Source: Sulfuritalea sp. (GTDB taxonomy: Bacteria; Pseudomonadota; Gammaproteobacteria; Burkholderiales; Rhodocyclaceae). From it: 47,804 bases of DNA. The position numbers and the translations under genes are program-made. Within the stretch, counting starts at the first letter, position 1; each line of letters begins with the position of its first letter. The DNA lies in NCBI GenBank assembly GCA_030696505.1, contig JAUYSD010000168.1, positions 1-47,804 of the forward strand, read 5' to 3'. Below the pieces are notes generated by a model, which saw only the letters and a list, made by a program, of their open reading frames with translations, had not been told where the DNA came from and made no database searches. This document shows positions 14,164 through 30,044 of the stretch, in pieces.

Positions 14164-14874
14164 TCAGATCTTGAAGTTGCGCTTGAAGGCGGAACGCTCG
14201 AGTTCCATCACTTCAGGCTGGCGGTAGGCGTCGCGGCCGAACTCGGTCGCATTGCGATCGGCGCCGATGTAGAAGACGTGCGGCTTGGTGCCTTCTTCGG
14301 GACGCAGCACCTGGGTCGCGTTGGTCGCCACCAGGTAGGACACCTCGCTCTTCGGATCGTTGATGTCGCCGAACACGCGCGAGCGGCCGATGCAGGTCTG
14401 CACGCAGGCCGGGACCAGGTTCTGGGTCACGCGGTGGAAGCAGAAGGTGCACTTGTCGACCACGTTGGTGATCGGCGTGTAGCTGCGGTGCGAAGGCAGC
14501 ATGAAGCGCGCGTTGTAGGGGCAGGCGGCCATGCAGCTGCGGCAGCCGATGCAGCGCTCGTAGCGCTGCAATATGAATCCGCCGTCCTCGACCTTGAAGG
14601 TCGCATCGACCGGGCAGTTGCGCACGCACGGGGCATCGTCGCAGTGGTTGCACAGCCGCGGCAGGAACTGCTTCTTGACGGTGGGATATTTGCCCACTAC
14701 CTTGTACGGCACCCATGTCCGATTGACGCCCAGCGGCGTGTCGTATTCGGCCTTGCACGCGACCTGACAGGCCATGCAGCCGATGCAACGACGCGTATCG
14801 ACCACCATGGCAAAACGCCTCTTGCCGGTGACGCCGCGCGTCTCGATGGGGGAGACCCTCAATTCTTCACTCAT
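14164..14874 (-). CDS. Four-cluster [4Fe-4S] electron-transfer subunit of molybdoenzyme 1
   Basis: 236 aa, DmsB/PsrB-type. The Cys groups CIGCMACQVAC, CNHCDDAPCVRNCP, CIGCRSCMAACP and CTFCFHR plus CVQTC give four [4Fe-4S] sites that carry electrons between the NrfD subunit and the catalytic subunit. No signal peptide is present, so it is presumably co-exported with the Tat-tagged catalytic subunit. I place the start at ATG 14874, after a strong GAGGAGG. Longer upstream in-frame starts run through the promoter region and are unlikely. First gene of operon 1, about 100 bp downstream of a sigma-54-like promoter. Confidence 0.9.
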   Translation of the reverse strand: MSEELRVSPIETRGVTGKRRFAMVVDTRRCIGCMACQVACKAEYDTPLGVNRTWVPYKVVGKYPTVKKQFLPRLCNHCDDAPCVRNCPVDATFKVEDGGFILQRYERCIGCRSCMAACPYNARFMLPSHRSYTPITNVVDKCTFCFHRVTQNLVPACVQTCIGRSRVFGDINDPKSEVSYLVATNATQVLRPEEGTKPHVFYIGADRNATEFGRDAYRQPEVMELERSAFKRNFKI

Positions 14875-14970
14875 CTGTCTTGCCTCCTCTGAATACAGTG
14901 ATTCGGTTTTTGTTCTGGTTTGGTTCGGCGCAAATCTGCGTCCGATGGACCAGCCTGCCGTTTTCTTTAC

Positions 14971-14985
14971 GCAACATCCAGGCCA
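14971..14985 (-). promoter_or_regulatory. Sigma-54-type promoter for molybdoenzyme operon 1
   Basis: On the minus strand the site reads TGGCCTGGATGTTGC, close to the consensus TGGCACG-N4-TTGC, with the required GG and GC 10 bp apart. It lies about 97 bp upstream of the first operon gene. Two GTTAC-type palindromes are centred about 87 and 131 bp upstream, the usual place for NtrC-type activator sites. A weaker GG-N10-GC match lies at about 14930-14945. Confidence 0.7.
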
Positions 14986-15063
14986 CGCCGCCCATTCGGG
15001 CGCCAATCCCTTGTCAGCATTGGGGATTAAGCCGGGGCTGGCCGGCGCGCTCGTCCGCTCGGC

Positions 15064-15079
15064 GTTACGCTGGCGTAAC
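15064..15079. promoter_or_regulatory. Activator palindrome, region 1, site 1
   Basis: GTTACGCTGGCGTAAC: perfect 7-bp arms around TG. The GTTAC-N6-GTAAC core recurs at 23614, 23666 and 23966, and nearly so at 15108. I infer binding by the NtrC-type regulators encoded nearby. Confidence 0.7.
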
Positions 15080-15107
15080 ACTTCGCTTCGATGCTGCGCT
15101 GCAACCT

Positions 15108-15123
15108 GCTACGCCCGCGTAAC
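15108..15123. promoter_or_regulatory. Activator palindrome, region 1, site 2 (one mismatch)
   Basis: GCTACGCCCGCGTAAC differs from the palindrome by one base in the left arm. It is 44 bp from site 1 centre to centre, about four helical turns, and about 50 bp before the binding-protein gene start at 15176. It could therefore also affect transcription of that gene. Confidence 0.55.
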
Positions 15124-15175
15124 GCTCATGGATATCAAGCATGAAGCACCGGCTTTCGCGCTTATCATCGCCACC

Positions 15176-16054
15176 ATGAGCAAGGGTGATCACCTATTGG
15201 CGGCAACACGCAGGCGGGTTTTTCTGCGCTCGGCGCTGGCCGTCGCCGCCATGCCCCTGCTGCCCGTACGCGCCGAGACAAGCGTCCTGCGCATCGGCCT
15301 GACGCCGGTCTTCCTCGACGACCAGTTGAGCTTCCTGACGCGCTGGCGCGCGTGGCTGGAGCGGCGGCTGAAGCGGCCGGTGGCCTTCGTGCAGCGCGGC
15401 AACTACCGCGAGGTGCTGGACCTGGTCCGCGGCGGCAAGATCGATTTCGCCTGGGTTTGCGGCTATCCCTATGTACGCTACCGGCATGAACTGCGCCTGG
15501 TCGCGGTGCCGCTGTGGCGAGGCCGGCCGTATTACCAGTCCTATATCATCGTGCCGGCCGACGACGCCAAGTCGAACAGCCTGACCGATCTGCGCGGCAA
15601 GGTATTTTCGTACTCGGACCCCGACTCGAATTCGGGCTACCTCTACCCCCAGTACCGGCTCACCACCCTGGGCGAGAATCCGACGACCTTCTTTTCCCGC
15701 AACTTCTTCACATGGGGCCACCGCAAGGTGGTCGAGGCGGTCGGCGTCGGATTGGCGGATGGCGGCGCGGTAGACGGCTATGTCTGGGAAACCCTGGCCG
15801 AGACCCATCCCGCGCTGACCCGCGGCACGCGCGTGATCGAGCGCTCGCCGGAGTTCGGGCACCCGCCCTTCGTCGCGCGCCCGGACATGTCCGCCATTGA
15901 ACTGCAGCGCTTCCGCGCCGTCCTGCTGGAGATGTCGTCCGATGCCGAGGGTGCCGAACTGCTGCACCTGTTGCGCCTGGATGGTTTTGTCGCCGGCCAG
16001 CCATCGCTGTTCGATGAAATCAGGCGCATGGCGGCGCGGGTGCGCCAGATATGA
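15176..16054 (+). CDS. PhnD-like periplasmic substrate-binding protein (X1)
   Basis: 292 aa. A twin-arginine-like leader (TRRRVFLRSA, residues 11-20) is followed by a PhnD/TtrS-type periplasmic binding fold beginning at VLRIGLTPVF. C95 in FAWVCGYPYV is kept in the paralogue X2. The block FFTWGHRKVVEAVGVGLA is also nearly identical in X2. ATG 15128 in frame is an alternative start; I prefer 15176 because it places the leader correctly. The stop overlaps the kinase start (ATGA). By analogy with AioX and ArxX, known PhnD-like proteins that present arsenite to a partner kinase, it probably binds the inducer and signals to S1. The ligand is unknown. Confidence 0.8.
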   Translation: MSKGDHLLAATRRRVFLRSALAVAAMPLLPVRAETSVLRIGLTPVFLDDQLSFLTRWRAWLERRLKRPVAFVQRGNYREVLDLVRGGKIDFAWVCGYPYVRYRHELRLVAVPLWRGRPYYQSYIIVPADDAKSNSLTDLRGKVFSYSDPDSNSGYLYPQYRLTTLGENPTTFFSRNFFTWGHRKVVEAVGVGLADGGAVDGYVWETLAETHPALTRGTRVIERSPEFGHPPFVARPDMSAIELQRFRAVLLEMSSDAEGAELLHLLRLDGFVAGQPSLFDEIRRMAARVRQI

Positions 16055-17499
16055 TCGCCCTGGCCGACCTTTCGCTGCGCTGGAAAATTCCGCTGCGCGT
16101 GATGGGGGCGGTGCTCGGCACCGCCCTGGCGGTCACCGCGGCCCTGGTGACGCGCGAGTACGACGAGATGCGGCAGAACCTCGATGCCCACGGCAAGAGT
16201 CTGGCGCGGGTGCTGGCCAACACGCTGGTGACGCCGGTGCTGCACGACGACATCTGGCGCGCCTACGAAATCCTGCAGTCGGCCCGCGATCCCACGGCGA
16301 TTGCGCCTGAACTGCAGGCCGATGTGGTGCTGGTGACCGACGCGGACTTCAATGTCTTCGTTTCCACCCGACCGAAAGAATTTCCGATCGGCAGCAGTCC
16401 GGCCAGTCGCGGCGGCGTCTACGGGCGTCTGCGCGCCGCACTGGTGAAGACCAAGGCGACGGAACAGCAGGTCATCGAACCGGCCGATTCGGTCCATTAC
16501 TTCGTCATGTCGCCGCTGGTGGCCGACGGCGTCGCGCTCGGCCATGTCATCCTCGGCTATTCGAAAATATCGTTCGTGCCGCGCTTCATCGGTCTGGTGG
16601 GACAGGCGGCATTCGTCACCCTGCTGGTGCTGGTGCTGATCCTGCCGTTCTCATGGTTCTGGGCGCGGCGCACGGGCGAGCCGCTGGTGGCCCTGGCCGA
16701 CGCCATGCGCCGGGTGCCGGGAGATCTGGAAGTGGCGCGCCTGGCCGATTTGCCCAAGAGCGGCGACGAGATCGGGCAACTGGGCAATGCCTTTCGCCGC
16801 ATGGTCGGCGAGTTGAAGCACAAGCAGGAACTCGAAGACCAGATGCTCGTCACCGAGCGTCTGGCCGCCGTCGGCCGCATGACGGCCGGCATCGCGCACG
16901 AGATCAACAATCCCCTGGGCGGCATGCTGACCGCGATCAAGACCTACCAGCGGCACGGCGCCGGCGACCCGCTGGCGAACCAGACCCTGTCGCTGCTGGA
17001 GCGCGGGCTCACGCAGATCCGCCATACCGTGGCCGCCTTGCTGGTCGAAACCAAGTTGCAGGACCGCCCGTTCGAACCGGCGGACATCGATGATCTGCTG
17101 ATCCTGGTCGAGGCCGAGGCGCGCGCCCGCTCCGTCACCATCGTCATCGAATCCCCGCTGGAGCGGGCGCTGCCCCTGCCGGCGACGCTGCTGCGGCAGA
17201 TCCTGCTCAACTTGCTGCTGAATGCCATCGCCGCGGCCGACGAGGGCGGCCGCGTGCGCCTCGGCCTCGGCAGCGGCGACGGAATGCTCAGGTTCTCGGT
17301 GTGCAACGACGGCAAGCACATTCCCGACGAGCAGATGGCCTATCTCTTCGAACCCTTCGCCAGCGGCCGCGAAAAGGGCTACGGCCTGGGTCTCTGGGTG
17401 GTTTACCAGATCGTGCAGCAGTTGAACGGCGGGCTGTCGGTGGATAGCGAGCCCGGCTGCACCACCTTCAGCGCCGAGATTCCCTATGTCGAAAACTGA
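16051..17499 (+). CDS. Sensor histidine kinase (S1)
   Basis: 482 aa. Two transmembrane helices (about 15-32 and 185-210) enclose a periplasmic region of some 150 residues. HAMP, a dimerisation helix with phospho-acceptor H283 in GIAHEINNPL, and an ATPase domain (NLLLNAI, a DG-containing G1 box, GYGLGLWV) follow. It overlaps X1 by 4 bp and the regulator R1 by 14 bp, so the three are translationally coupled. Predicted to autophosphorylate when X1 carries ligand and to phosphorylate R1. S2 (21020-22501) is a paralogue with the same architecture. Confidence 0.88.
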   Translation: MIALADLSLRWKIPLRVMGAVLGTALAVTAALVTREYDEMRQNLDAHGKSLARVLANTLVTPVLHDDIWRAYEILQSARDPTAIAPELQADVVLVTDADFNVFVSTRPKEFPIGSSPASRGGVYGRLRAALVKTKATEQQVIEPADSVHYFVMSPLVADGVALGHVILGYSKISFVPRFIGLVGQAAFVTLLVLVLILPFSWFWARRTGEPLVALADAMRRVPGDLEVARLADLPKSGDEIGQLGNAFRRMVGELKHKQELEDQMLVTERLAAVGRMTAGIAHEINNPLGGMLTAIKTYQRHGAGDPLANQTLSLLERGLTQIRHTVAALLVETKLQDRPFEPADIDDLLILVEAEARARSVTIVIESPLERALPLPATLLRQILLNLLLNAIAAADEGGRVRLGLGSGDGMLRFSVCNDGKHIPDEQMAYLFEPFASGREKGYGLGLWVVYQIVQQLNGGLSVDSEPGCTTFSAEIPYVEN

Positions 17500-18832
17500 A
17501 TCCGCGCTGCGCCTGTGCCTGATCGAGGACGACGAGATCATGGGCGAATCCCTGATCCAGTTGTTCCGCCTGGAAGGCTTTGCCGTGGACTGGTGCCGCA
17601 CGGCGGCCGCGGGCGCCGTGGCGATCGGCGCCCACCGCTACAGCCTCGTGGTGAGCGACATCCGGCTGCCGGACCGCAACGGCGGCGACCTGTTCCTCGA
17701 ACTCAAGGAAACACAGCCGTGGCTGCCACCCTTCCTGTTCATGACCGCCTTCGGCACCATCGACCGCGCCGTGGAACTGCTCAAGGCCGGTGCCGCGGAC
17801 TACGTCACCAAGCCCTTCGACGTCGACGTCCTGGTGCAGAAAGTGCGCGGCCTGGCCGAGGGCTACGGCGCAGTCCGCGATGGCGGCGACGATACGCTCG
17901 GCGTATCGCCGGCGATGCGGCGCATCGCCGAGTCGATCCCGCGCCTGGCACGCCACGCCACCGCGCTGCTGATCACCGGCGAGTCGGGTGCCGGCAAGGA
18001 GCACGTGGCGAAATTATTCCATCGTCACGCGATCGGCGAGGCGGGCGAGTTCATCGCCGTGAATTGCGCCTCGATTCCCGAGTCGCTGATGGAAGCGGAA
18101 CTCTTCGGCTTTGAGCGCGGCGCCTTCACCGGTGCGGTCAAGGCCAAGCGCGGCTACTTCGAGCAGGCGCACCAGGGCACGCTGTTCCTCGACGAAATCG
18201 GCGAAATGCCGCTGTCGATGCAGGCCAAGATGCTGCGCGTGCTGCAGGATCAGCGCCTGACCCGCTTGGGCGGAGAGAAAGCCATCACCTCGGACTTCCG
18301 TCTGGTCTGCGCGACCCATCGCGACCTGCGTGCGATGGTCGACGCCGGCCAGTTCCGCGAGGATCTGTATTACCGGATTCACGTGATTCAGCTGCGCATT
18401 CCGCCGCTGCGGGAACGGCCGGAAGACATCCGCTGGTTCGTGCGCCATTTCGTCGAGGAATTCAACCGCGCCCACGCCGGCGAGCAGCGCCGTCTCGACC
18501 CGCGCACCGAGCAAGCTCTGCTGCACTACGCCTGGCCCGGCAACGTGAGGGAGCTGCGGCACGCGGTGGAGCGTGCCTGCATCCTTTCCAGCGGGCCCCT
18601 GCTCGGCGCCGAAGCCTTCTTTGGCGGCGGCATCGACGGCGAGGTGGCGCAGCCGCTGGAATCCGAATCCCTGAGCGAATACCTGATGGGCTGCGAACGC
18701 GACTATCTGTCGCTGATCCTGGAACGGCACGGCGGCCACATGACCCATGCCGCCGAGGCTCTGGGCATTACGCGCAAGACTCTCTGGGAAAAGCTTCGAC
18801 GCCTTGGAATCAAGGCAAAAGGCGAGCCGTAG
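17486..18832 (+). CDS. NtrC-type sigma-54-dependent response regulator (R1)
   Basis: 448 aa. Receiver domain with phospho-acceptor D58 (VVSDIRLPD), AAA+ domain with Walker A GESGAGKE, the sigma-54 contact loop GAFTGA at 212-217, and a Fis-type helix-turn-helix at the C-terminus (THAAEALGITRKTLWEK). Activators of this type bind palindromes upstream and remodel sigma-54 polymerase. The GTTAC-N6-GTAAC sites and -24/-12 promoters in both flanking intergenic regions are the obvious targets (inference). Ends 103 bp before the methyltransferase gene. Confidence 0.92.
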   Translation: MSKTESALRLCLIEDDEIMGESLIQLFRLEGFAVDWCRTAAAGAVAIGAHRYSLVVSDIRLPDRNGGDLFLELKETQPWLPPFLFMTAFGTIDRAVELLKAGAADYVTKPFDVDVLVQKVRGLAEGYGAVRDGGDDTLGVSPAMRRIAESIPRLARHATALLITGESGAGKEHVAKLFHRHAIGEAGEFIAVNCASIPESLMEAELFGFERGAFTGAVKAKRGYFEQAHQGTLFLDEIGEMPLSMQAKMLRVLQDQRLTRLGGEKAITSDFRLVCATHRDLRAMVDAGQFREDLYYRIHVIQLRIPPLRERPEDIRWFVRHFVEEFNRAHAGEQRRLDPRTEQALLHYAWPGNVRELRHAVERACILSSGPLLGAEAFFGGGIDGEVAQPLESESLSEYLMGCERDYLSLILERHGGHMTHAAEALGITRKTLWEKLRRLGIKAKGEP

Positions 18833-18857
18833 CGACGTCGGCAAGGCGTTCCCCAAC

Positions 18858-18886
18858 TTGACAGCCTGTCGCCACGAAGGCTAAAT
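18858..18886 (+). promoter_or_regulatory. Possible sigma-70 promoter for the UbiE-like gene
   Basis: A perfect -35 TTGACA (18858-18863) and a 17-bp spacer precede a weak -10 CTAAAT. The gene could equally be read through from the X1-S1-R1 operon. Confidence 0.35.
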
Positions 18887-18935
18887 CCGGGCCTCAGTCA
18901 GCACCGACACAAACCAATTGCAGGAGAAAACAACA

Positions 18936-19700
18936 ATGGCACCCCCCCCACTGGCCACGCGCGAGGCAGTACGCGAAGAACGCTTCAACGATGTCTGGAC
19001 CAACGAACTCAACGACGCGTTTGCCGACATCGCGCGCTATTACGACCGTGCCAACGAAATCGCCGCGCTCGGTCTGTGGAGCACTTTCCTCAAGCGCTTC
19101 ATGCAGACCGTGGACATCAGGCCGCAGCAGAAGGTGCTCGACGTCTGCGCCGGCACCAACGCCATCGGCATCGCCCTGCTCAAGCGCGAACCGACGCTGG
19201 ACGTGCATGCCATGGATCGCAGCGCCGAAATGCAGACCGTGGGCGCGCAAAACGCCGCCGCGCTGGGCTTCCAGATCAAGAGCACGATCGGCGACGTGCA
19301 CAAGCTGCCCTTCCCCGACAATCATTTCGACGTCGTCACGCTGCAGTTCGCCTCGCGCCACCTGCGGGTGCGCGAGGTGTTCACCGAGATTCTGCGCGTG
19401 CTCAAGCCCGGCGGCCACTTTCACCATTCCGACATGCTGCGGCCGCGCAACGTGATCGTGAAGAACCTGTATTTCACCTACCTCAAGGCCTGCCTGAATT
19501 TCACCAGCCTGATCGTCGGCAGCAGTCCCGCGGCGACCAAGTTCAAGCAGTATTTCATCGATGCGCTGGACCTGTTCTACACCGCCGAAGAGCTGTCGAT
19601 CGTGCTGCGCGAACTGGGCTACGTCGAGGTGAGCGTGGACACGGTGTTCTACGGCATGATCGGTTTCCACCGCGCCGTGAAGCCGGCCGACAAGGGCTGA
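18936..19700 (+). CDS. UbiE/MenG-like SAM-dependent methyltransferase
   Basis: 254 aa. N-terminal FADIARYYDRANEIAALG and motif I VLDVCAGTNAIGIAL mark a class I SAM methyltransferase of the UbiE/MenG (demethylmenaquinone methyltransferase) type. LRVLKPGGHF is the post-III motif, and the end YGMIGFHRAVKP resembles the UbiE C-terminus. Start is ATG 18936, with GGAG nine bases upstream. Codons 2-5 contain eight consecutive C (18942-18949), a possible slippage site. It lies between the two sensor cassettes, so it may modify the quinone used by this respiratory system. A general duplicate of ubiE elsewhere in the genome, or another small-molecule methyltransferase, is also possible. Confidence 0.7.
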   Translation: MAPPPLATREAVREERFNDVWTNELNDAFADIARYYDRANEIAALGLWSTFLKRFMQTVDIRPQQKVLDVCAGTNAIGIALLKREPTLDVHAMDRSAEMQTVGAQNAAALGFQIKSTIGDVHKLPFPDNHFDVVTLQFASRHLRVREVFTEILRVLKPGGHFHHSDMLRPRNVIVKNLYFTYLKACLNFTSLIVGSSPAATKFKQYFIDALDLFYTAEELSIVLRELGYVEVSVDTVFYGMIGFHRAVKPADKG

Positions 19701-19721
19701 TTCAATTTCGGCCGGAGGCGT

Positions 19722-21041
19722 TCAGCCTTCGGCCATGTCCAGCTTGCGCATTTTTTCCCAGAGGTTCTTGCGGCTGATGCCGAGCAGGGCGGCGGTGTCG
19801 GCGATGCGCCCGCCGCATTCGGCGAGCGCCCGGCGGATGTAGGCGCGCTCGCAGTCCTGCAGGTGCTCGCTGAGCGGTTGCCGCAAGGTGTCGGCGTCTG
19901 CCGCGCCGCCGCCGTCGGCGCCGAACAGGCTTTCGGCGCTCAGCGCCGGGGTCAGGCAGAGCACGCTGGCGCGCTCCAGGCAATGCTGCAATTCGCGCAC
20001 GTTGCCCGGCCATGGATAGCGGGTCAGGGCGCGTTCGGCCTCGGGCGTCAGCGTGCGGCGGGTTTCGCCGCGGCTTGCGCGTGCATCCAGCAGGCGCGTG
20101 GCCAGCCAGAGGATGTCTTCCTGCCGTTCGCGCAGGGGCGGCACCTGCAAATGGATGACGTGGATGCGGTAGTACAGATCCTCGCGGAAGCGGCCCTGTT
20201 CCACCATGGACTTGAGGTCGTTGTGCGTGGCGCAGATCAGCCGGATATCCACCTGATGCGGCGTGGCGCCGCCGACGTGTACCACCGCCCGGTCCTGGAT
20301 CGCACGCAGCAACTTGACCTGCATGGAAGGCGGCATTTCACCGATCTCGTCAAGGAACAGGGTACCGCCATCGGCCTGCTCGAAGACGCCGCGCCGGTCG
20401 CGGTCGGCACCGGTGAAGGCGCCCTTGTCGTGGCCGAACAATTCCGACTCGACCAGGTTTTCGGGGATCGCACCGCAGTTCACTGCGATGAAGGGGGTCT
20501 TGCCCTCCGGATCGCCGGCTCGGTGCAGAGCCCGCGCGACCTCCTCCTTGCCGGCGCCCGACTCGCCGGAAATCAGCACCGCGCTGCGGCTCGCCGCCAG
20601 GCGCGGCAGCAGTCCCTCGATATGCCGCATGCTGGTGGAAATTCCCAGTCGGGCGTCGCTGCTCGCGGCTTGTTGCTGATGCTCGCAAAGGCCGCGGATC
20701 TTGGCGATCAGTTCACCGACGTTGAAGGGCTTGGTCACGTAATCCTGGGCACCCAGCTTGAGCAGGCGCACGGCCTGGTCGATGGCGCCGTAGCCGGTGA
20801 TGAAGATCATCGGGGCGATGGCCCGGTTGCCGGCGAGCAGCTCGCGGAACAGCTGTTCGCCGCTGATGTCGGGCAGGTTGATGTCGCTGACGATCACGCT
20901 GTAGCGGCGCTGACCGAGACCGCGCCGGGCCGATTTGCCGTCGCGGAACCAGTCGCAGTTGAAGCCTTCGAAGTCGAGCCGTTCCGACAGCGCTTCACCG
21001 ATGATGGGGTCGTCCTCGATCAGGGCGATGCGGTGCTGCAT
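19722..21041 (-). CDS. NtrC-type sigma-54-dependent response regulator (R2)
   Basis: 439 aa from ATG 21041 (GGAG upstream). Receiver with D53 (VIVSDINLPD), AAA+ domain with GESGAGKE, GAFTGA at 207-212, and a C-terminal Fis-type HTH (TAALLGISRKNLWEK). Clearly a paralogue of R1, including the recognition-helix region (GISRKNLWEK against GITRKTLWEK), which fits both using similar DNA sites. It overlaps the kinase S2 by 22 bp. Convergent with the UbiE-like gene, with a 21-bp gap. Confidence 0.92.
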   Translation of the reverse strand: MQHRIALIEDDPIIGEALSERLDFEGFNCDWFRDGKSARRGLGQRRYSVIVSDINLPDISGEQLFRELLAGNRAIAPMIFITGYGAIDQAVRLLKLGAQDYVTKPFNVGELIAKIRGLCEHQQQAASSDARLGISTSMRHIEGLLPRLAASRSAVLISGESGAGKEEVARALHRAGDPEGKTPFIAVNCGAIPENLVESELFGHDKGAFTGADRDRRGVFEQADGGTLFLDEIGEMPPSMQVKLLRAIQDRAVVHVGGATPHQVDIRLICATHNDLKSMVEQGRFREDLYYRIHVIHLQVPPLRERQEDILWLATRLLDARASRGETRRTLTPEAERALTRYPWPGNVRELQHCLERASVLCLTPALSAESLFGADGGGAADADTLRQPLSEHLQDCERAYIRRALAECGGRIADTAALLGISRKNLWEKMRKLDMAEG

Positions 21042-22501: not shown

Positions 22502-22503
22502 GG

Positions 22504-22758
22504 TTAACTCGAAATGCTTTGCCAAGCGAGCTGTGTCAGGTTCGAGCGCAGCGAGCCGATTGGTAGCCTCCCCCGCGAGGGGGGCGAGGCGGGAATTCGC
22601 GACGCATGCGTCGCGCCGCCGCAGCCGGCTGGCTGTGCAAAGCCAGCCGTGGGCCGCGCAGCGGACGGGAGGGGGAGGGCCCACTTGCCAGCTTGACGGA
22701 TTGCGACGTTAAAGAATTTCATGATGCGCGGTTGTTCATCGAAGTCATGAGCGTTGGC
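22504..22758. repeat. Dispersed intergenic element, copy B
   Basis: Homologous to 6727-6897 along its length, with the same orientation relative to flanking minus-strand genes and the same abutment on an upstream stop codon. It contains the REP-like hairpin at 22595-22653. It separates X2 from S2, so it appears to have been inserted into a formerly tighter operon. Confidence 0.65.
22595..22653. repeat. REP-like double-hairpin repeat, copy 3
   Basis: First stem is CGCGACGCA/TGCGTCGCG and second is CTGGCT/AGCCAG. Compared with copies at 1-61 and 131-190, both stems carry paired changes (AAG/CTT, GAG/CTC, ACG/CGT; CCGGCT/AGCCGG to CTGGCT/AGCCAG). Confidence 0.7.
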
Positions 22759-23652
22759 TCAGGCTTCGCCAAAGCTGCGCATCATGCGTGCCACGCCTTC
22801 GTACAGCGCCGGACTGCCGATGGTGAACCCGTCCAGGTGCAGCAGGCCGAGCAGGCGCCGTCCGGCTTCGCTGCGCGCAGTGTCGAGCAGATGGCGCTGC
22901 ATGAGCTGAAAGTCGGCGCTGGCCACCGAGCGATGGGCGACAAAGGGTGGGAAACCATACTCCGGCGAACGCCAGACCACGCGCGTTCGTGCCGTCAATG
23001 TCGGCTCGACGTGAGCCAGGGTGTCCCAGATGTAGCTGTCCACCGCGCCGCCCTGTGCCAATCCACTGGCCACCGCCTCGACCACCTTGCGATGCGACCA
23101 GGTAAAGAAGGTCTTGCGGAAGAAGCCCGCGGGGTCGCGTCCCAACTGGCGGATTTCATAGCGGGGTGCCAGGTAGCCTGTATTCGAATAGGGGTCGGCA
23201 TAGGCGAACACGGCGTCCGACAGGTCGGCTATCGAACGGGTCTGTGTATCGCCCTTGCGTACGATCAGGTAGGAACGGTAATGCGGACGCCCCTGATAGA
23301 GCGGCACCGCCAACAGGCGCACGGCGTCCTTGAGATGCAGGTAGGGATAGTCGCAGATCCAGGCGAATTCGAGCTTTTCCAGCCGCAGCAAGTCCATGGT
23401 TTCGCGATAGCTGTCGCGCTGCACGAATTCCACGGGTCTTTGCAGGGAAGCTGCCATGAACGCGCGCCATTCGCCGAGCATGCTGTGCTGGTCATGGAGA
23501 AAGGCCGGAGTCATGCCGACTCGCAGCTTGCCGCCAGCGGCCTGCGATTTGCGCGTGAGGCCGATCAGTCCCGCGGCGGCAAGGCATCCGCTGCCGAGCA
23601 GCCAGCGGCGTCGGTTACGGTTAGGTAACGAACTTTCGATTATCCGACTCAT
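22759..23652 (-). CDS. PhnD-like periplasmic substrate-binding protein (X2)
   Basis: 297 aa from ATG 23652 (GAGG upstream). A basic, twin-arginine-like leader (NRRRWLLGSG) precedes a PhnD-type binding fold starting at KLRVGMTPAF. C100 in FAWICDYPYL aligns with C95 of X1, and FFTWSHRKVVEAVASGLA is shared. Presumed ligand-presenting component for kinase S2. Two of the GTTAC palindromes (23614, 23666) lie over its first codons and its likely transcription start, so the cognate regulator may repress or tune it. The ligand is unknown. Confidence 0.8.
   Translation of the reverse strand: MSRIIESSLPNRNRRRWLLGSGCLAAAGLIGLTRKSQAAGGKLRVGMTPAFLHDQHSMLGEWRAFMAASLQRPVEFVQRDSYRETMDLLRLEKLEFAWICDYPYLHLKDAVRLLAVPLYQGRPHYRSYLIVRKGDTQTRSIADLSDAVFAYADPYSNTGYLAPRYEIRQLGRDPAGFFRKTFFTWSHRKVVEAVASGLAQGGAVDSYIWDTLAHVEPTLTARTRVVWRSPEYGFPPFVAHRSVASADFQLMQRHLLDTARSEAGRRLLGLLHLDGFTIGSPALYEGVARMMRSFGEA
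23614..23629. promoter_or_regulatory. Activator palindrome, region 2, site A (inside X2 coding start)
   Basis: GTTACGGTTAGGTAAC. Perfect GTTAC-N6-GTAAC core, about 147 bp upstream of the sigma-54-like promoter at 23767. It overlaps codons 8-13 of X2. Confidence 0.65.
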
Positions 23653-23665: not shown

Positions 23666-23681
23666 GTTACGATACGGTAAC
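23666..23681. promoter_or_regulatory. Activator palindrome, region 2, site B
   Basis: GTTACGATACGGTAAC, centred about 95 bp upstream of the promoter at 23767 and 52 bp from site A. It sits between a TAAAAT -10-like element (minus strand, about 23682-23687) and the X2 start. Confidence 0.7.
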
Positions 23682-23710
23682 TATTTTAACTCCTATTACC
23701 ACTACATAAA

Positions 23711-23760: not shown

Positions 23761-23766
23761 TCCTCG

Positions 23767-23781
23767 TGGCATGTTTCTCGC
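23767..23781 (+). promoter_or_regulatory. Sigma-54-type promoter for molybdoenzyme operon 2
   Basis: TGGCATGTTTCTCGC. GG and GC are 10 bp apart, with two deviations from TGGCACG-N4-TTGC. It lies about 95 and 147 bp downstream of the paired palindromes, mirroring operon 1. It implies a leader of about 280 nt before ATG 24077. The 425-bp interval 23653-24076 otherwise holds the 40-bp direct repeat, palindrome C and no convincing gene. Confidence 0.6.
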
Positions 23782-23895
23782 GAATAGAGGGGCAAACATG
23801 ATGATCGGGTCCCTGCCGTGAATACTCCATCCAAGCTTTCAACCGGGCATCGCCTGCGTGGCGGGGACGCTGTCGGCCTTGCGGCATGCGGCGCC

Positions 23896-23917
23896 GTGTC
23901 GCCAGCGCCAACTCTTG
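23896..23917. repeat. Short dispersed motif (GCCAGCGCCAACT type)
   Basis: GTGTCGCCAGCGCCAACTCT in the operon 2 leader. Close copies are at 9103, 33206 (reverse), 41521 and 46685. Confidence 0.45.
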
Positions 23918-23965
23918 CCGGCCAGTCATGCGGTGGGGCGAGCGCGATGGCTGCACGGAATTCAT

Positions 23966-23981
23966 GTTACCGCACGGTAAC
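23966..23981. promoter_or_regulatory. Activator palindrome, region 2, site C (in leader)
   Basis: GTTACCGCACGGTAAC, perfect 7-bp arms around CA. It lies downstream of the inferred transcription start of operon 2, so it may act as a roadblock or as a distal enhancer rather than a classic upstream site. Confidence 0.65.
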
Positions 23982-24076
23982 CGGCTTGGCGGCCGGAGGG
24001 CGCGGACAGTTTCAGGCAAGTCTCACCATGCGACGTCCATTCGAAGCAATGGCAACAACATCTAGGAGTCAATGAT

Positions 24077-26671
24077 ATGGAAATCGGAAGAAGAGGTTTC
24101 ATCAAGGGCATGGGCGCCCTCGGCGGCGCGGCGGCTTCCGGCGTCGGTTTCGATGCCCTCGCTGCGGCGGCGAAAGCCAAACCCGCGGCGGCGGCCAAGT
24201 CGATGGAAGTCAAGACCTACAAGTCCGGCTGCTCGATTTGCCCGAACTTCTGCGGCATCCAAGGCAACGTGGTGAATGGCATCGTCAAGTCCATCTATCC
24301 CGATGCTGCGCGCGCCGAGGTTTACAACCATGGCATCTGCCCCAAGGGTGCTTCGGGCATGTACAACACTTACGACCCTTATCGGCTGAAGAAGCCGCTG
24401 AAGCGCACCAACCCGAAGAAGGGACCGAATGAGAACCCCGGCTTTGTCGAGATCAGCTGGGAAGAAGCTTTCTCGCTGGTGGCGGAACGGCTCAAGAAGA
24501 TCAAGGCCGACAATCCGTCGAAGCTGGTTTTCCAGTGGGGCCAGGGCAAGTACCTTATCGGCGACACCAACCTGAAAGCCTGGTGCGGCGCCTTCGGCAC
24601 GCCGAACGCGATACACCGCACGACGCTGTGCGAGGCGGCGCGGCACGTCGCGGATGAACTGACCTGGGGCTATCACGGCCATCTGCCGGACCTGAAATAC
24701 ACCAATCTGCTGCTCAATTTCGGCGCCAACTATCACGAAGGCGAGCAGACCTCGCGCTGGCTCGACTGGGCGACAGCCCAGGGCCGCGAACGCGGCTTGA
24801 AGACGGTTGTCATGGATCCGCGCCTGTCCGGTTGTGCCGCCAAGGCTGACGAATGGGTTCCGGTGCGACCGGGCAAGGACGTGGCGATGATCCTTGCCAT
24901 GTGCAAGGTGTTGATCGACGCCGGCACGATCGACGAGGAATTTCTCACCACCTACACCAACTCGCCGCAACTGGTGGGCGCCGACGGCAAGATCGTCACG
25001 GACAAGGACGGCAAGACACCGCTGGTCTGGGATACGGTGAGCAACACCGCCTCGGCTTACACGGCCAACGTCAAGCCGGCGCTCAAGGGCAGCTACACGG
25101 TCGACGGCAAGCCGGTACGCACCGCGTTCACGGTGTTCGCCGAAAGCCTGAAGGACGTCACGCCACAATATGCCGAAGAAGTGGCCGGCGTACCTGCCGC
25201 CACCATCACGCGCCTTGCCGCAACTTTCGCCAAGGAAGCGCATATCGGCGAGTTCAAGGAAATCGACGGCGTCAAACTGCGTTATCGCCCGGTTGCGGCC
25301 TACACCTTCCGCGGACTTGCCGCCAAGGAGTTCGGCGTGCAGAACTCGCGTTCCCTGCTGATCCTAAATTCGCTGGTGGGAGCGATCGACGCCGTCGGCG
25401 GCTTCCTGCTCCACCACCCGAACAACCACCCCGAGTACCTGGAACCCGCGAAGTGCGACTATCCGCCGAAACGCACGGACATGCAGCAAACCGTGTTCCA
25501 TCCGAACTCCCATCACAACATCGGCCAGCAGACCAACATCACGCTGCTCGACCCGAAGTCCTGGGGGCTGGGCTACGTGCCCGAGATGCAGATGTTCTAC
25601 GGTACCAACCGCGCGGTTTCGACATCGAACGCCTGGCAGCAATTCGAGGGCATGGCCAAGACCTTCAACGTGGTGATCGATATTGTGATGACCGAAACCG
25701 CATGGTATGGGGATGTCGTCCTGCCCGACAAGACCTATCTCGAATCGTGGCACAACGCGCCGGCCAAGACTCACCCCGAGATGACCGGCATCGTTGCGAT
25801 CCGCCAGCCGATGACCAATCCCTACAACCTCGAACACAATGCCTCCTCGATAATCTTCGAGCTGGCCAAGCGCGTCGGCTTCCGCGACAAATATCTTGAA
25901 AACCTGAACAAGGGCTGGAAGCTCAAGGAGGTCCAGTTCAAGCCGGGCCGCGACTACACGACCGAAGAACAGGTCGAGGTGATCTGGACCGACAAGACCA
26001 AGAAGGATTTCGCCTATGCCAAGGAACATGGTTTCGTCGCCAAGAAGCTGGACGTCAAGGGCAAGTATCTGCACGGGGTCGATCCGGTGTTCAAGGGGCC
26101 TGGCAAGCCGAAGTTCAAGCTATATGCCGATCACTTCGTCGGTACCTATGAAACAGTCGAGAAGGTCGTCAAGGCCAACAACATCACCCGGATCGACCTG
26201 GCCAAATACAAGCTGGCCTACTCGCCGATCCCGACCAAGGAGCATGCTTTCCCGACGCCGCATCGCGAAGCCAAGGACTTCCCCTTCTACCTGATAACGC
26301 ACAAATCAATGCATCGCTACCAGTCCGGCAACACGGTCAACAACGTGATCACCAATCAGGCGCTGGGATCGGATCTCGAAACCAACTACGTCGCGATCAA
26401 TGCCGCAACGGCCAAGCAGATGGGCATCAAGGACGGCGATACGGTGCAGATCGAAACCCGCGTCGGCAAGGTCAAGGGCACGGCCAAACTTACCCAGGGC
26501 GTGCGTCCCGATACCCTGGCGGTGTCCTATCACTACGGGCAGTGGAGCCCCGGCTATGCCCCGGCCGCCAAGCAAGGAACCTGGATCAACCAAGTGCTGG
26601 AGTTGCACCCGGACGTTCCGTCGGGCATGAACTCCTTCAACGATACCAAGTGCAAGCTGACCAAGGCATAA
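24077..26671 (+). CDS. Tat-exported molybdopterin oxidoreductase 2, catalytic subunit (ArrA/PsrA-type)
   Basis: 864 aa. The Tat leader is RRGFIKG (R5R6). The complete proximal [4Fe-4S] motif is C52-x2-C55-x3-C59-x28-C88. C185 in TTLCEAARH is at the molybdenum-ligand position. LKRTNPKKG followed by FVEISWEEA recalls the ArrA/ArxA branch as I remember it, but that needs a tree. AGGAG precedes ATG 24077. An Fe-S subunit, a diheme cytochrome c, a TorD chaperone and a ferredoxin follow with gaps of 14 bp or less, and there is no membrane anchor. Electrons therefore probably pass through periplasmic cytochromes rather than directly to quinone. Substrate unknown; oxyanion reduction or oxidation are both possible. 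Confidence 0.85.
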   Translation: MEIGRRGFIKGMGALGGAAASGVGFDALAAAAKAKPAAAAKSMEVKTYKSGCSICPNFCGIQGNVVNGIVKSIYPDAARAEVYNHGICPKGASGMYNTYDPYRLKKPLKRTNPKKGPNENPGFVEISWEEAFSLVAERLKKIKADNPSKLVFQWGQGKYLIGDTNLKAWCGAFGTPNAIHRTTLCEAARHVADELTWGYHGHLPDLKYTNLLLNFGANYHEGEQTSRWLDWATAQGRERGLKTVVMDPRLSGCAAKADEWVPVRPGKDVAMILAMCKVLIDAGTIDEEFLTTYTNSPQLVGADGKIVTDKDGKTPLVWDTVSNTASAYTANVKPALKGSYTVDGKPVRTAFTVFAESLKDVTPQYAEEVAGVPAATITRLAATFAKEAHIGEFKEIDGVKLRYRPVAAYTFRGLAAKEFGVQNSRSLLILNSLVGAIDAVGGFLLHHPNNHPEYLEPAKCDYPPKRTDMQQTVFHPNSHHNIGQQTNITLLDPKSWGLGYVPEMQMFYGTNRAVSTSNAWQQFEGMAKTFNVVIDIVMTETAWYGDVVLPDKTYLESWHNAPAKTHPEMTGIVAIRQPMTNPYNLEHNASSIIFELAKRVGFRDKYLENLNKGWKLKEVQFKPGRDYTTEEQVEVIWTDKTKKDFAYAKEHGFVAKKLDVKGKYLHGVDPVFKGPGKPKFKLYADHFVGTYETVEKVVKANNITRIDLAKYKLAYSPIPTKEHAFPTPHREAKDFPFYLITHKSMHRYQSGNTVNNVITNQALGSDLETNYVAINAATAKQMGIKDGDTVQIETRVGKVKGTAKLTQGVRPDTLAVSYHYGQWSPGYAPAAKQGTWINQVLELHPDVPSGMNSFNDTKCKLTKA

Positions 26672-26685
26672 GGGAGTAAACCATC

Positions 26686-27378
26686 ATGGCAAAATTTGGA
26701 CGACTCATAGACACCAAGCGCTGCATCGGCTGCCGCTCCTGCGTGGCCGCCTGCGCGGTGGAAAATCACTTCACTCCCGATGCGCAGTGGAACGCGATGA
26801 TCGAGTACGAGGTGGGCACCTACCCCGAAGTACACAAGATCTACCAGACGATGAACTGCATGCACTGCGAAAAGCCGTCATGCAAGGCCATCTGCGACAA
26901 GATCGGGGTCAAGGCGATCAGCAAGAACGAATATGGCGTGGTGCTGTTCGATTACAAGAAATGCATCGGCTGCGGCTACTGCGCATCCGTCTGCCCGTAT
27001 GGCGTGCCGCAGATGAATACCGAGCTGAAGCCCCTGAATCCCGGCAAGGGCGCGCAGGGCATGGAGACCATCGCCCAGGCCGATCGGCACCCGACGCATC
27101 AGAAGAAGGCCAAGTCTGCCGAGAAGTGCACCTTCTGCTGGCACAAGATCGAAAAGGCGATCAAGGACGGCAAGCAGGATCGCATCGGCAAGGATCAGGA
27201 TTACACGCCGGCCTGCGATCTGGTCTGCCCGACGCAGGCCCGCTGGTTCGGCGACCTCGATGATCCGAAGTCGGAAATTTCGATGCGCATCAAGGCGACC
27301 AATGCCGTACAACTGAAGACGCATTTCGGCAACAAGCCGCAGGTGTATTACACGCTGGACAAAGGAGCCAAGTCATGA
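26686..27378 (+). CDS. Four-cluster [4Fe-4S] electron-transfer subunit of molybdoenzyme 2
   Basis: 230 aa, DmsB/ArrB/PsrB-type. Cys groups CIGCRSCVAAC, CMHCEKPSCKAIC, CIGCGYCASVCP, and CTFCWHK with CDLVCP give four [4Fe-4S] clusters. No signal peptide, so export with the catalytic subunit is expected. A Lys-rich insert of about 40 residues lies between the third and fourth Cys groups. AGGGAG precedes ATG 26686. It overlaps the cytochrome gene downstream by 4 bp (ATGA). It relays electrons between the Mo subunit and, by position, the diheme cytochrome. Confidence 0.9.
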   Translation: MAKFGRLIDTKRCIGCRSCVAACAVENHFTPDAQWNAMIEYEVGTYPEVHKIYQTMNCMHCEKPSCKAICDKIGVKAISKNEYGVVLFDYKKCIGCGYCASVCPYGVPQMNTELKPLNPGKGAQGMETIAQADRHPTHQKKAKSAEKCTFCWHKIEKAIKDGKQDRIGKDQDYTPACDLVCPTQARWFGDLDDPKSEISMRIKATNAVQLKTHFGNKPQVYYTLDKGAKS

Positions 27379-27707
27379 GACTACTGTTTGCATCAATGGC
27401 GCTGGGTTTGAGCCTGGCCATGGCACCGGCTTTCAGTGCCGACGCACCGGTCAAGAAAAAGATGGTGTTTTCCGGCAAACCGTCGATGGCCGTCGAAGGA
27501 CGTTTCCACAAACTGCACGAGAAGCAGGAAAAGCTCGACTGCGCCGATTGCCACGAGAAGGTGCAGGAAGACATCCTCTACCTGCGCAAGGACGACCGCA
27601 TGTCGAAGGCACTGGCAGATGAGGGCCAGTCCGACCGCAAGGGCTGTCTGACTTGCCACAAGCCCGGTTACAAGCCGAACGGGCCGCACTCGTTCTGGGG
27701 AGTTTGA
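27375..27707 (+). CDS. Small periplasmic diheme cytochrome c
   Basis: 110 aa with a Sec signal peptide (residues 1-22, ending AFSA). Two heme c attachment sites, CADCH and CLTCH, and several His residues (FHKLH, HEK, PHSF) that could be second axial ligands. It overlaps the Fe-S subunit gene by 4 bp, so it is very likely a subunit or dedicated partner of molybdoenzyme 2. It replaces the NrfD membrane anchor present in operon 1. I do not recognise a named family. Confidence 0.8.
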   Translation: MRLLFASMALGLSLAMAPAFSADAPVKKKMVFSGKPSMAVEGRFHKLHEKQEKLDCADCHEKVQEDILYLRKDDRMSKALADEGQSDRKGCLTCHKPGYKPNGPHSFWGV

Positions 27708-27709
27708 GC

Positions 27710-28393
27710 ATGAGCTCGACCGCGACACTGGCGGATGTTGCCGGGCGCCGCGGCCGCACCTATTGGCTGCTGGCCCGGGGCTTTGCCGAGGCGCCGGGAA
27801 GCGTGCTTCTCGGCGAACTCATCACGGCGCTTGGTCCGGTGAATCCCGCCGAACCCCTGGCGGCAGAGACCGCCGCCTTCGCCGATGCCCTGCACTCGGC
27901 CCTCAGCGCGGACGCTGCGTCGGATGCTTTAGCCATAGAGTTCACCCGCTTGTTCGGCGGCATCTCCGAGTCCTACGGCGGACCGCCGCCGTTCGAATCG
28001 GTGGTGCGCAGCGGCAACTGGGGCGGTGATATTGCGCTGGCCGTGGTGGCCGCCTACGCCGATGCCGAAATCGTGCCGCCGCTGCCCGATGCCAGCCCGC
28101 CCGATCACCTTGCGGCTGAATTACGTTTCCTCGCCATCGCCTGCCATCGCGAAGGCCAGGCGTGGCAGGCGGATGACACCCAGGCGGCGATGGACTGGGT
28201 AGGTCGCGAACGAGACTTCCTTGATCAGCATGTCTTGCGCTGGGTTCCCGAGTATTGCCGGCAGGCCGCCGGAATGGCGGAAACTCCGTTCTACCGTGCC
28301 CTGCTGGCGCTGACGCCGCGTGCCTGTGAGCTCGATCGCGAAGACATCGATGCCATTTTTGAATCCGTGCCATCCTTCGCCGAGAATGTCTGA
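27710..28393 (+). CDS. TorD-family molybdoenzyme chaperone
   Basis: 227 aa from ATG 27710, two bases after the cytochrome stop. The TorD pattern is visible: RGRTYWLLARGFAEAP, then AIEFTRLFGG and GGPPPFESV, and a helical C-terminal half with FLDQHVLRWV. Presumed cytoplasmic chaperone for the catalytic subunit at 24077. Normal family length, unlike the extended paralogue of operon 1. Overlaps the ferredoxin gene by 8 bp. Confidence 0.87.
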   Translation: MSSTATLADVAGRRGRTYWLLARGFAEAPGSVLLGELITALGPVNPAEPLAAETAAFADALHSALSADAASDALAIEFTRLFGGISESYGGPPPFESVVRSGNWGGDIALAVVAAYADAEIVPPLPDASPPDHLAAELRFLAIACHREGQAWQADDTQAAMDWVGRERDFLDQHVLRWVPEYCRQAAGMAETPFYRALLALTPRACELDREDIDAIFESVPSFAENV

Positions 28394-30044
28394 TCCCTTC
28401 GTACCGCCGTTTTTTTTCAGTCCTCCTGCTCAAGCTGGCGGTATGTCCGGATTGAGATTCATGGCGCCGGGTACCCCGGTCCCGCACGATGGAGTGGTCT
28501 ATCGGTCGCGCGGTTCGGTGCTGATTGCGGGCGACACAGCGTCCGCCGCAGAAGCGGCGCGCGAACTGGTTCGGCGCGCGCCGAACTTGCGCATAGCCCT
28601 GTTTGCGCCTGGGGTGGCGGCGCTCGGCGATCTGCCGACGACGGTCAAGGCGGTCGGCGGGCGCATCGTTTCGCTGCGAGGTCATCTCGGGCGATTTTCC
28701 GCGTCTGTTCGCGTCGCCGTCGATAAGGCCGAAGACGCCGGAATATTCAGCGGCAACGCGGACCGGCACTTCGATCTGGTGCTCGACCTTTGTCGCGAGC
28801 CGTTGCTGCAGCAAAGCGTGCTGCCCCATGGCTACTATGCGCCGGGCGACGATGCAACGGCTCTGGCCCGGGCACTGGACAGCCTGCCGCAACTGACGGG
28901 TGATTTCCACAAGCCGAAGTATGTGAACTACCGTCCGCAACTCTGCGCCCATGGAGCGATGGGGGTTGCCGGCTGCGGGCGTTGCCTCGATGTCTGCGCC
29001 ACCCAGGCGATTCGTTCGAGCGGCGAAAAGATCGAGGTGGACCCCTACCTCTGCCAGGGCTGCGCCGGCTGCACCTTGGTTTGCCCGAGCGGGGCACTCG
29101 AATTTCAGCATCCGGCCCCGGGAACCCTGCAGGCGTTGTTGGATGAACGTCTCGAAAAATCGGGCGAAATTTCGCCAAGGTCGATTCTGGTGGTGCACGA
29201 CGCCGCGGCGCGCCATCTATTGCCCGTCACCGAGGCGTCCGGGGCGCTTTTCCTGGAGGTGAATCCCCTGCCCGCATTCTCGGACCTGATGTGGCTCAAG
29301 ACCCTGGTGGATGGCGTCGGCGGTCTGGTCCTGGTACTGGCGCCGACGACCCCGCCGCAGAGCCGCCAGTTGATCGAGTTCAAGCTGGAGGAACTGCGCA
29401 GCATACTGGCCGAGCTGGGTTGCGATCCCGAGGTACTGCAAATCGCCGCTCCTCAGGATGTTGCCATGGCGATCGAACAAATCAGGAACACTGCCTGCCC
29501 GCCTGCCATGACTGCGCCGGCCGCAGGCTCCGCCGTGAATGGAAAACGGGAAAGCCTGCTGGCGCTGATCGACGCGCTCGGTGCAAGCAGAAAAACGGAT
29601 GGGCGAGCCAACGCGCCCCGCGCGCTCGCGACCGGGGCAGGATTTGGCACGGTATTGGTGGATGCCGGGAAATGTAGCCTCTGTCTGGCATGCACGCATT
29701 TGTGCCCGACCGGGGCGCTTGGTGGTCAGCTCGATCCGGCGCCGTTGCTGTTGTTCAAGGAAAGTCTTTGCATTCAGTGCGATCTGTGCCGCGCCGGATG
29801 TCCGGAACAGGCGATTGCGCTGCAGCCGCGCTTTTTGCCTAGCCCGGCAGCACGCAATGCGGCGCGCGAACTGGCCAGCGATCAGCTGGCGGCATGCAGC
29901 AGTTGCGGAACACCGTTTATCGGCCGGCGCAAGCTGGCCCTGAGTCTGGCGCTGATGCGGGAACACGCGAAGGACATGCCGGGCGGCATCGACAGCCTGC
30001 GGATGTGTCCCGCCTGTCGGCAACGGAAAACAATGCTGGGCTAA
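28386..30044 (+). CDS. Multi-[4Fe-4S] ferredoxin-type protein of molybdoenzyme operon 2
   Basis: 552 aa from ATG 28386, no signal peptide. An N-terminal domain of about 180 residues without Cys clusters is followed by C-x9-C-x2-C-x3-C (CAHGAMGVAGCGRCLDVC) and CQGCAGCTLVCP. A linker of about 200 residues then leads to CSLCLACTHLCP and CIQCDLCRAGCP, and a C-terminal pair of CxxC knuckles (CSSCG, CPACR). The iron-sulfur layout matches the shorter protein at 6898-7995 of operon 1. The repeated association with a TorD gene suggests a redox role in enzyme maturation or a cytoplasmic electron input. The exact function is not known to me. Confidence 0.78.
   Translation: MSDPFVPPFFFSPPAQAGGMSGLRFMAPGTPVPHDGVVYRSRGSVLIAGDTASAAEAARELVRRAPNLRIALFAPGVAALGDLPTTVKAVGGRIVSLRGHLGRFSASVRVAVDKAEDAGIFSGNADRHFDLVLDLCREPLLQQSVLPHGYYAPGDDATALARALDSLPQLTGDFHKPKYVNYRPQLCAHGAMGVAGCGRCLDVCATQAIRSSGEKIEVDPYLCQGCAGCTLVCPSGALEFQHPAPGTLQALLDERLEKSGEISPRSILVVHDAAARHLLPVTEASGALFLEVNPLPAFSDLMWLKTLVDGVGGLVLVLAPTTPPQSRQLIEFKLEELRSILAELGCDPEVLQIAAPQDVAMAIEQIRNTACPPAMTAPAAGSAVNGKRESLLALIDALGASRKTDGRANAPRALATGAGFGTVLVDAGKCSLCLACTHLCPTGALGGQLDPAPLLLFKESLCIQCDLCRAGCPEQAIALQPRFLPSPAARNAARELASDQLAACSSCGTPFIGRRKLALSLALMREHAKDMPGGIDSLRMCPACRQRKTMLG

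Follow-up and report, generated by a model that had tools for sequence, protein, structure and literature searches.

Our data point toward two arsenic-responsive regulatory units of the AioXSR type in a 47,804-nucleotide stretch of DNA from Sulfuritalea sp. (contig JAUYSD010000168.1; hereafter, the window), each placed divergently from its own operon for a periplasmic respiratory molybdoenzyme, and we hold this reading with good confidence. Each unit consists of a periplasmic binding protein (X), a sensor histidine kinase (S) and a sigma-54 activator (R), and the catalytic subunits of the two enzymes are referred to as cat1 and cat2. Taken together, the evidence from sensors, operators and gene neighbourhoods makes an arsenic role of both enzymes likely. 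The regulation itself is ordinary in kind, but as far as the literature searched shows, the controlled enzymes are uncharacterised: among the open-licence papers listed, titles and abstract beginnings yielded no description of these modules.

Two inverted modules with arsenic-type sensors

The window makes up contig C1 in a draft genome of 4.45 Mb (398 contigs, 90% complete), and the X proteins most similar to X1 are encoded in drafts labelled Sulfuritalea sp. and Rhodocyclaceae. A gene-by-gene check bore out the layout given in a preliminary description of this DNA, namely, two inverted X-S-R/molybdoenzyme modules with a UbiE-like gene between them. The extent given there for the modules, 14164-30044, had to be corrected; module 1 reaches down to ~6294, and the shorter range leaves out cat1, its anchor, TorD and ferredoxin. 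The core genes are as follows.

6898..7995 (start approximate), minus strand: fdx1, multi-cluster ferredoxin of module 1; Fer4 families, kept in the operon
9652..10593, minus strand: torD1, molybdoenzyme chaperone (PF02613)
10632..13271, minus strand: cat1, Tat-exported molybdoenzyme catalytic subunit, 879 aa; Fe-S ligands Cys-Cys-Asp-Cys, Mo-ligand Cys181
13295..14152, minus strand: nrfD1, NrfD/PsrC-type membrane subunit; TtrC/NrfD models below cut-off, orthologue in Azoarcus sp. KH32C annotated as NrfD/PsrC family
14164..14874, minus strand: fes1, electron-transfer subunit with [4Fe-4S] clusters
15176..16054, plus strand: X1, AioX-subfamily periplasmic binding protein (AioX 6ESV, E 7.5e-66)
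16051..17499, plus strand: S1, sensor histidine kinase
17486..18832, plus strand: R1, sigma-54 activator with receiver domain and GAFTGA
19722..~21041, minus strand: R2, sigma-54 activator with receiver domain and GAFTGA
21020..22534 (start approximate), minus strand: S2, sensor histidine kinase
22759..23652, minus strand: X2, AioX-subfamily binding protein (AioX 6ESV, E 9.8e-57)
24077..26671, plus strand: cat2, Tat-exported molybdoenzyme catalytic subunit, 864 aa; Fe-S cluster and Mo ligated by Cys
26686..27378, plus strand: fes2, [4Fe-4S] electron-transfer subunit
27375..27707, plus strand: periplasmic di-haem cytochrome c, two CXXCH
27653..28393, plus strand: torD2, chaperone (PF02613)
~28383..30044, plus strand: fdx2, multi-cluster ferredoxin

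The regulators of the two modules are clear paralogues (X 50%, S 42% and R 52% identical), as the preliminary description had stated, whereas the ferredoxins, named there as a further pair, are only weakly alike (25%, E 1e-7); fes1 and fes2 share 34% and the TorD proteins 30% of their residues. Likewise, the picture of a duplicated and diverged system fits the regulators but not the enzymes, which are 24% identical and fall into separate clades, and on these grounds duplication of a whole module was rejected. The enzymes do differ in ligands and anchors as described: cat1 has the Fe-S motif C-x2-C-x3-Asp (kept in 46 of 49 orthologues, the other three being fragments without the N terminus) and an NrfD-type anchor, and cat2 has C-x2-C-x3-C and a di-haem cytochrome but no anchor gene. 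The paired layout is seen again in other loci (in L047 as far as cat2, in L037 and L039 up to the locus end), and it is therefore no chance assembly.

Compared with solved structures, X1 and X2 both matched AioX best and ArrX next, far ahead of PtxB/PhnD types; the best structure of another type reached E 4.4e-14 (7s6g) for X1 and 8.7e-9 for X2. The pocket of AioX is formed by Tyr88, Cys106, Tyr131, Ser161, Ser163, His192 and Asp210, and its cysteine is missing from PhnD (Badilla et al. 2018, PMC5908839; this and the other cited papers are represented here by excerpts). In an alignment judged by eye, X1 retains all seven residues and X2 six of them, the cysteine included in both. In isothermal titration calorimetry (ITC), arsenite was a ligand of AioX and ArxX, and both arsenate and phosphate were ligands of ArrX; no further oxyanion of the tested list was bound, antimonite and selenate included, with selenite absent from the list as excerpted (PMC5908839). 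On sequence grounds, X1 and X2 are members of the AioX/ArxX/ArrX subfamily of arsenic-oxyanion sensors. The earlier proposal of an inducible respiration-type system with an AioXSR/ArxXSR-like sensor plan is supported.

A tree of 95 X proteins (SH-aLRT support only, with some weak branches) shows cat1-linked and arx-linked sensors interleaved, with six label changes for cat1 and nine for arx after 20 rows without a scored neighbour had been dropped; four genomes appear twice in the tree. In this tree, X2 of the window pairs with the X from an ArrA locus (support 99), within a clade of 10 (support 100) that also holds X proteins of arx and other cat2 loci. To judge from this tree, sensors move between the known arsenic enzymes and the cat1/cat2 enzymes.

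A common operator upstream of the enzyme operons

Both gaps between X and enzyme genes hold the palindrome GTTAC-N6-GTAAC; module 1 has an exact copy and a near one, and module 2 has three exact copies (operators are given without strand).

14971..14985, minus strand: sigma-54 -24/-12 type promoter of module 1, TGGCCTGGATGTTGC, two mismatches to TGGCACG-N4-TTGC
15064..15079: AioR-type operator GTTACGCTGGCGTAAC, exact pattern match
15108..15123: second operator of module 1, one mismatch
23614..23629: AioR-type operator GTTACGGTTAGGTAAC, overlapping the first codons of X2 as annotated
23666..23681: AioR-type operator GTTACGATACGGTAAC
23767..23781, plus strand: sigma-54 type promoter of module 2, TGGCATGTTTCTCGC, two mismatches
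23966..23981: AioR-type operator GTTACCGCACGGTAAC

The consensus of AioR is GTT-N10-AAC, with a footprint on GTTCGGATTTCCGAAC (PMC5335332). The palindrome fits both, and the switch architecture is therefore the same as that of AioR. Indeed, the traits of an AioR-type regulon are found in both modules: GTT-N10-AAC upstream of the enzyme operon and a sigma-54 activator with GAFTGA (R1, R2). The window has four exact sites, and five with at most one mismatch compared to 0.14 expected; none of 100 shuffles scored as high. In the whole 4.45-Mb genome, six exact sites were found, compared to three for a reversed control pattern: four in the gaps of the window, one in a third gap between an X and a molybdoenzyme gene (contig C46) and one on contig C194, where no gene of the X or molybdoenzyme type was seen.

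The pattern was followed in 79 named X loci, taken from the 80 top matches to a query alignment of X proteins in which X1 stood first; the set therefore favours cat1-type loci. It contains related, non-independent genomes, two loci that overlap on one contig (L064 and L103) and a cat1 locus from a draft labelled Phycisphaerae (L065), possibly a binning error. An exact operator is present in 48 of the 62 gaps with a readable divergent neighbour (cat1, 27/38; arx, 20/21; arr, 1/1; others, 0/2). In total, 62 sites lie in 35.7 kb of gap compared to 10 in 1,088.5 kb elsewhere, and three of these 10 are in the X2-cat2 gap of L047. No site in the 62 gaps matched any of four other palindromes with identical spacing or any of three other spacings. 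Sigma-54 type sites with at most two mismatches point toward the enzyme in 57 of the 62 gaps and toward X in six (shuffled mean, 2.9), and the module 2 promoter sequence recurs identically upstream of an ArrA-clade operon in L114. Between X and cat2, exact operators were found in the window, L047, G088, G668 and G764; upstream of cat2, the operator is present in G020 and absent in G150. Since the operators are common to them, the two modules are likely co-regulated, and R1 and R2 may act on both operons as well as on the third module.

This third X-S-R/molybdoenzyme module lies on contig C46 of the same genome (G000, locus L144, 421-7843), where the contig ends inside S3. X3 is divergent from a 976-aa molybdoenzyme of the TtrA clade with Fe-S subunit, ferredoxin, TorD and cytochrome, and the operator stands at 5950. 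The operator led to this module and offers a simple, enzyme-independent finder of such genes.

Enzymes, gene neighbourhoods and alternative readings

The tree of catalytic subunits has 50 rows, of which 15 are cat1 and six are cat2; each of these two sets is a single clade (support 100). The reference rows were ArxA, ArrA, TtrA-like, PhsA and DmsA, with PsrA, SrdA, SrrA and AnrA rows left out; the deeper branching order is uncertain, given the small number of these rows and the length of several branches. In the sampled genomes, no sequence passed the cut-off of the curated ArrA model (0/274) or TtrA model (0/143), and the ArrA and TtrA rows of the tree are therefore below-cut-off homologues. 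With both enzymes outside the ArxA/ArrA and TtrA clades, the trees, which had been named beforehand as a check and were run in part, leave the earlier proposal standing.

None of the NCBIfam models listed scored above its cut-off for cat1 or cat2: the ArrA model NF041714 gave 184 and 199 bits (cut-off 1600), the AioA model TIGR02693 gave 32.9 and 24.7 bits (cut-off 359) and the TtrA model NF011567 gave 145 and 68 bits (cut-off 1750), and neither enzyme falls in the TtrA clade. Both lack the GRGWG motif of ArxA (three ArxA rows aligned) and the (R/K)GRY motif of ArrA (RGRY in the three ArrA rows aligned, of four in the tree). Instead, cat1 carries YGRxR in 37 of 49 orthologues, the remainder including WGR forms and fragments, and cat2 carries [WH]G[QH]GKY; the Mo-ligand cysteine is kept in both. 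The cat1 orthologues in X loci are 77-99% identical and mostly from Proteobacteria. A structure prediction of cat1 (mean pLDDT 63.7, Fe-S region and part of the active site below 50) was not used. Two candidate relatives were set aside: NaoABC and, from Thioalkalivibrio, a SoeABC-like candidate without a Tat signal. A cat1-like clade of ~40% identity with all four Fe-S cysteines was seen near X genes in two loci, L107 and L115, which come from Sedimenticola and a further draft of the Gammaproteobacteria; in L115 there are two copies, both on the same strand.

The closest known systems include arx/ArxXSR. Divergent XSR, a Tat-exported molybdoenzyme, an Fe-S subunit, an NrfD-type anchor, TorD and a multi-cluster ferredoxin (arxB2) are shared with arx loci, as are the operator and the interleaved sensors; the differences are, besides clade and motif, the Asp ligand and extra genes of cat1 and, in module 2, the di-haem cytochrome in place of an anchor. 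With arr/ArrXSR, the window shares an XSR2 83-86% identical to the XSR beside the ArrA-clade enzyme in L114, but cat2 is only 25-27% identical over its full length to four ArrA-clade enzymes. The sensor subfamily and an operator fitting GTT-N10-AAC are shared with aioBA/AioXSR; the enzymes differ from AioA as scored above, and no Rieske subunit gene was seen in the modules.

A search with cat1 that made no use of X found seven other genomes (81-88% identity) among 250 of the order, and all seven have a divergent X-S-R beside cat1. Carriers are relatives of Aromatoleum, Thauera, Azoarcus, Accumulibacter, Sulfuritalea, Thiobacillus and Gallionellaceae. In Azoarcus sp. KH32C, module 1 (cat1 88%) is on plasmid pAZKH and adjoins genes for a helix-turn-helix protein, arsC, arsD, arsA and acr3. 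An acr3 probe and cat1 were mapped together in 35 chosen genomes (10 from first searches, 25 from named loci), 33 of which have cat1. The two genes share a contig and are no more than 40 kb apart in 15 of the 33 genomes compared to 0.84 expected (Poisson 3e-14), and no more than 20 kb apart in 10 compared to 0.44 expected (Poisson 5e-11), with expectations from copy number and genome size and with a Poisson test that ignores relatedness.

The cat2 gene was found in 5/250 genomes of the order, 3/369 of the class and 6/199 of the family, the own genome being counted each time. Among nine other genomes found by cat2 alone, X-S-R is directly divergent in four (G088, G494, G764 and G668), and in G201 the contig ends in an R fragment. 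In G020 and G150, cat2 stands beside arx and the X-S-R of arx; in G442 and G678, acr3 and arsC lie within ~6 kb of cat2, with no X-S-R in the fetched stretch. In G088, cat2 is also near acr3/arsC, and in G668 (by our assignment Candidatus Accumulibacter sp. 66-26) cat1 and cat2 are 9 kb apart. G494 combines, inside 40 kb (L151-L152), an X-S-R with cat2 and flavocytochrome c, a second X-S-R near aioBA, whose AioA scores 1254 bits against a cut-off of 359, and an ArrA homologue that has RGRY and scores 1155 bits against a cut-off of 1600.

Several observations weigh against an arsenic role. The statement of the preliminary description that no arsenic genes lie here is literally correct, as the window has no aio, arx, arr or ars gene, but its sensors belong to the arsenic subfamily, and in many relatives orthologues of both modules stand beside arx, aio, arr or ars genes. 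In the own genome (90% complete), no ArxA or ArrA orthologue was found, and its acr3 matches are on contigs other than that of cat1, so that it counts among the misses. Three distant cat1 relatives (39-42%) have no X-S-R in the fetched stretch, 11 of 38 cat1 gaps and the X-cat2 gap of G494 have no exact operator, and 19 of the 79 X loci have no scored enzyme on the divergent side, partly because of contig ends. ArxA and ArrA form a separate clade (100) that excludes cat1 and cat2. Finally, common regulation denotes a shared kind of inducing signal and says nothing on the substrate.

Further points of this sort would fit sulfur-compound reductases or oxidases (of the polysulfide, thiosulfate or tetrathionate type) whose recruited AioX-type sensors now sense sulfur oxyanions, which we regard as unlikely. 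The nearest solved structure to cat1 is 2vpw, a named thiosulfate reductase of the thiosulfate/polysulfide type. The plan of module 1 (molybdoenzyme, Fe-S subunit and NrfD-type anchor) is that of PsrABC/PhsABC, from which the arsenic-type sensor and operator set it apart. The best curated model for both enzymes is that of PhsA (NF012032), but with 351 bits for cat1 and 280 for cat2 they stay far under its cut-off of 694. Sulfur-type neighbours are the rhodanese-like gene in module 1, a TusA-like open reading frame in G182 (by eye) and flavocytochrome c sulfide dehydrogenase genes, which adjoin cat2 in G020, G150, G201 (by eye), G494 and G678, that is, at 5 of 11 cat2 loci (two of the 11 end too early to be judged); none was seen beside cat2 in the window. 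The hosts of X loci include Thiobacillus, Sulfuricella and Sulfuritalea. Against sulfur sensing stand the pocket cysteine, kept as in AioX and absent from PhnD, the operator common to arx and arr loci and the clustering with acr3.

A second alternative, in which the modules act on another metalloid oxyanion, such as antimonite or selenite, and a re-tuned protein of the AioX type senses it, appears quite improbable. Two or three parallel sensor-enzyme pairs per genome suggest different ligands, and the pockets of X2 (Thr for Ser163) and X3 (substituted, with Asp210 also lost) have changed, which again counts against arsenic; X1 also shows a weak likeness to the model of a putative selenate-binding protein, with 95.9 of 250 bits. 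The linkage, however, is to arsenic genes, although acr3 and efflux genes related to it can serve antimonite as well. The ITC results, with arsenite as the sole listed ligand of AioX and ArxX, argue against this alternative as well, and the published Sb(III) oxidase NaoA clusters with NapA, according to an excerpt of that report. Detoxification or redox balance instead of respiration would agree with the co-located efflux and arsenate reductase genes, but it is highly improbable for modules with electron-transfer subunits, an NrfD-type membrane subunit and a di-haem cytochrome, as in respiratory molybdoenzymes.

Proposed electron transfer and accessory genes

In our model of arsenic-responsive respiration, X1 or X2 would bind an arsenic species in the periplasm and activate S1 or S2, which would phosphorylate R1 or R2; binding of the regulator to GTTAC-N6-GTAAC would then turn on the sigma-54 promoter. 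From the subunit make-up, enzyme 1 is probably quinone-linked, electrons of cat1 passing via fes1 and NrfD to the quinone pool, whereas enzyme 2, which has no membrane anchor, is probably cytochrome-linked, electrons of cat2 passing via fes2 and the di-haem cytochrome to periplasmic cytochromes and perhaps onward to the downstream multi-haem and MtrAB-type genes. The enzymes probably run undescribed arsenic reactions, because arsenic respiration genes of related bacteria have the same switch sites. Candidate substrates would be arsenite, thioarsenate or another metalloid.

Cultured carriers exist. Strain M52 oxidises arsenite with nitrate and has reported arx and ars genes (PMC6549141), and arxAB is reported for strain J5B (PMC6397845). 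G150 and G020, possibly M52 and J5B, respectively, hold two further operons within ~35 kb, which go unmentioned in the excerpted texts on M52 (PMC6549141) and J5B (PMC6397845). Because these two carriers, if rightly assigned, grow on thiosulfate with nitrate, a first guess at the reaction may be the oxidation of arsenite or thio-arsenic species.

It is imaginable, though we rate it as somewhat doubtful, that Aio, Arx and Arr are joined by two arsenic oxidoreductase families that have gone unrecognised, cat1 and cat2. In this extended model, a third type of arsenite (or thioarsenite) oxidase, the quinone-linked cat1, would be widespread among Proteobacteria that denitrify or oxidise sulfur or iron, and thioarsenate would be processed by cat2, which often occurs together with flavocytochrome c, with one AioR-type switch over the whole arsenic-sulfur respiratory network. 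Arsenic respiration is usually scored in genomes by three markers, aioA, arxA and arrA, and if cat1 and cat2 handle arsenic, many genomes may be wrongly scored as lacking it; if G150 is M52, a studied arsenite oxidiser would hold two further operons. Some Sulfuritalea genomes carry arr (PMC11283718).

The remaining genes of the modules and the gene between them are as follows.

6294..6695, minus strand: conserved 133-aa protein at the 3' end of module 1, with an orthologue at the same place in related loci and Azoarcus sp. KH32C; no match in a Pfam search
7992..8456 (coordinates approximate), minus strand: periplasmic rhodanese-like protein with a vicinal Cys pair (PCCVIDGR), assigned from sequence
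8456..9163 (start approximate), minus strand: HisA/HisF-like protein; KH32C orthologue PF00977 at 23.8 bits (cut-off 23.6), no Pfam match for the reading frame of the window itself
9199..9642, minus strand: TPR/DUF309-like small protein (PF03745 below cut-off)
18918..19700, plus strand: UbiE/MenG-like methyltransferase, between the modules

The KH32C orthologue of the rhodanese-like protein matches PF00581 weakly (E 0.006, below cut-off). Its Cys pair is present in 22 of 31 cat1 loci scanned; that it is linked to As(III) binding is no more than a suggestion. The UbiE-like gene is found again, with 87-92% identity, in the arx or arr loci L050, L062 and L114 and may therefore belong to the arsenic island. 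Downstream of module 2, positions 30290-37717 encode two c-type cytochromes of small size, a cytochrome with nine CXXCH motifs and a b561-like domain (scored below the Pfam cut-off), a response regulator, an MtrA/DmsE-like cytochrome with ten CXXCH motifs and a porin of the MtrB type; by their predicted products, these genes form an extracellular electron transfer set. The same gene order also stands behind the arx-XSR-UbiE locus of L050.

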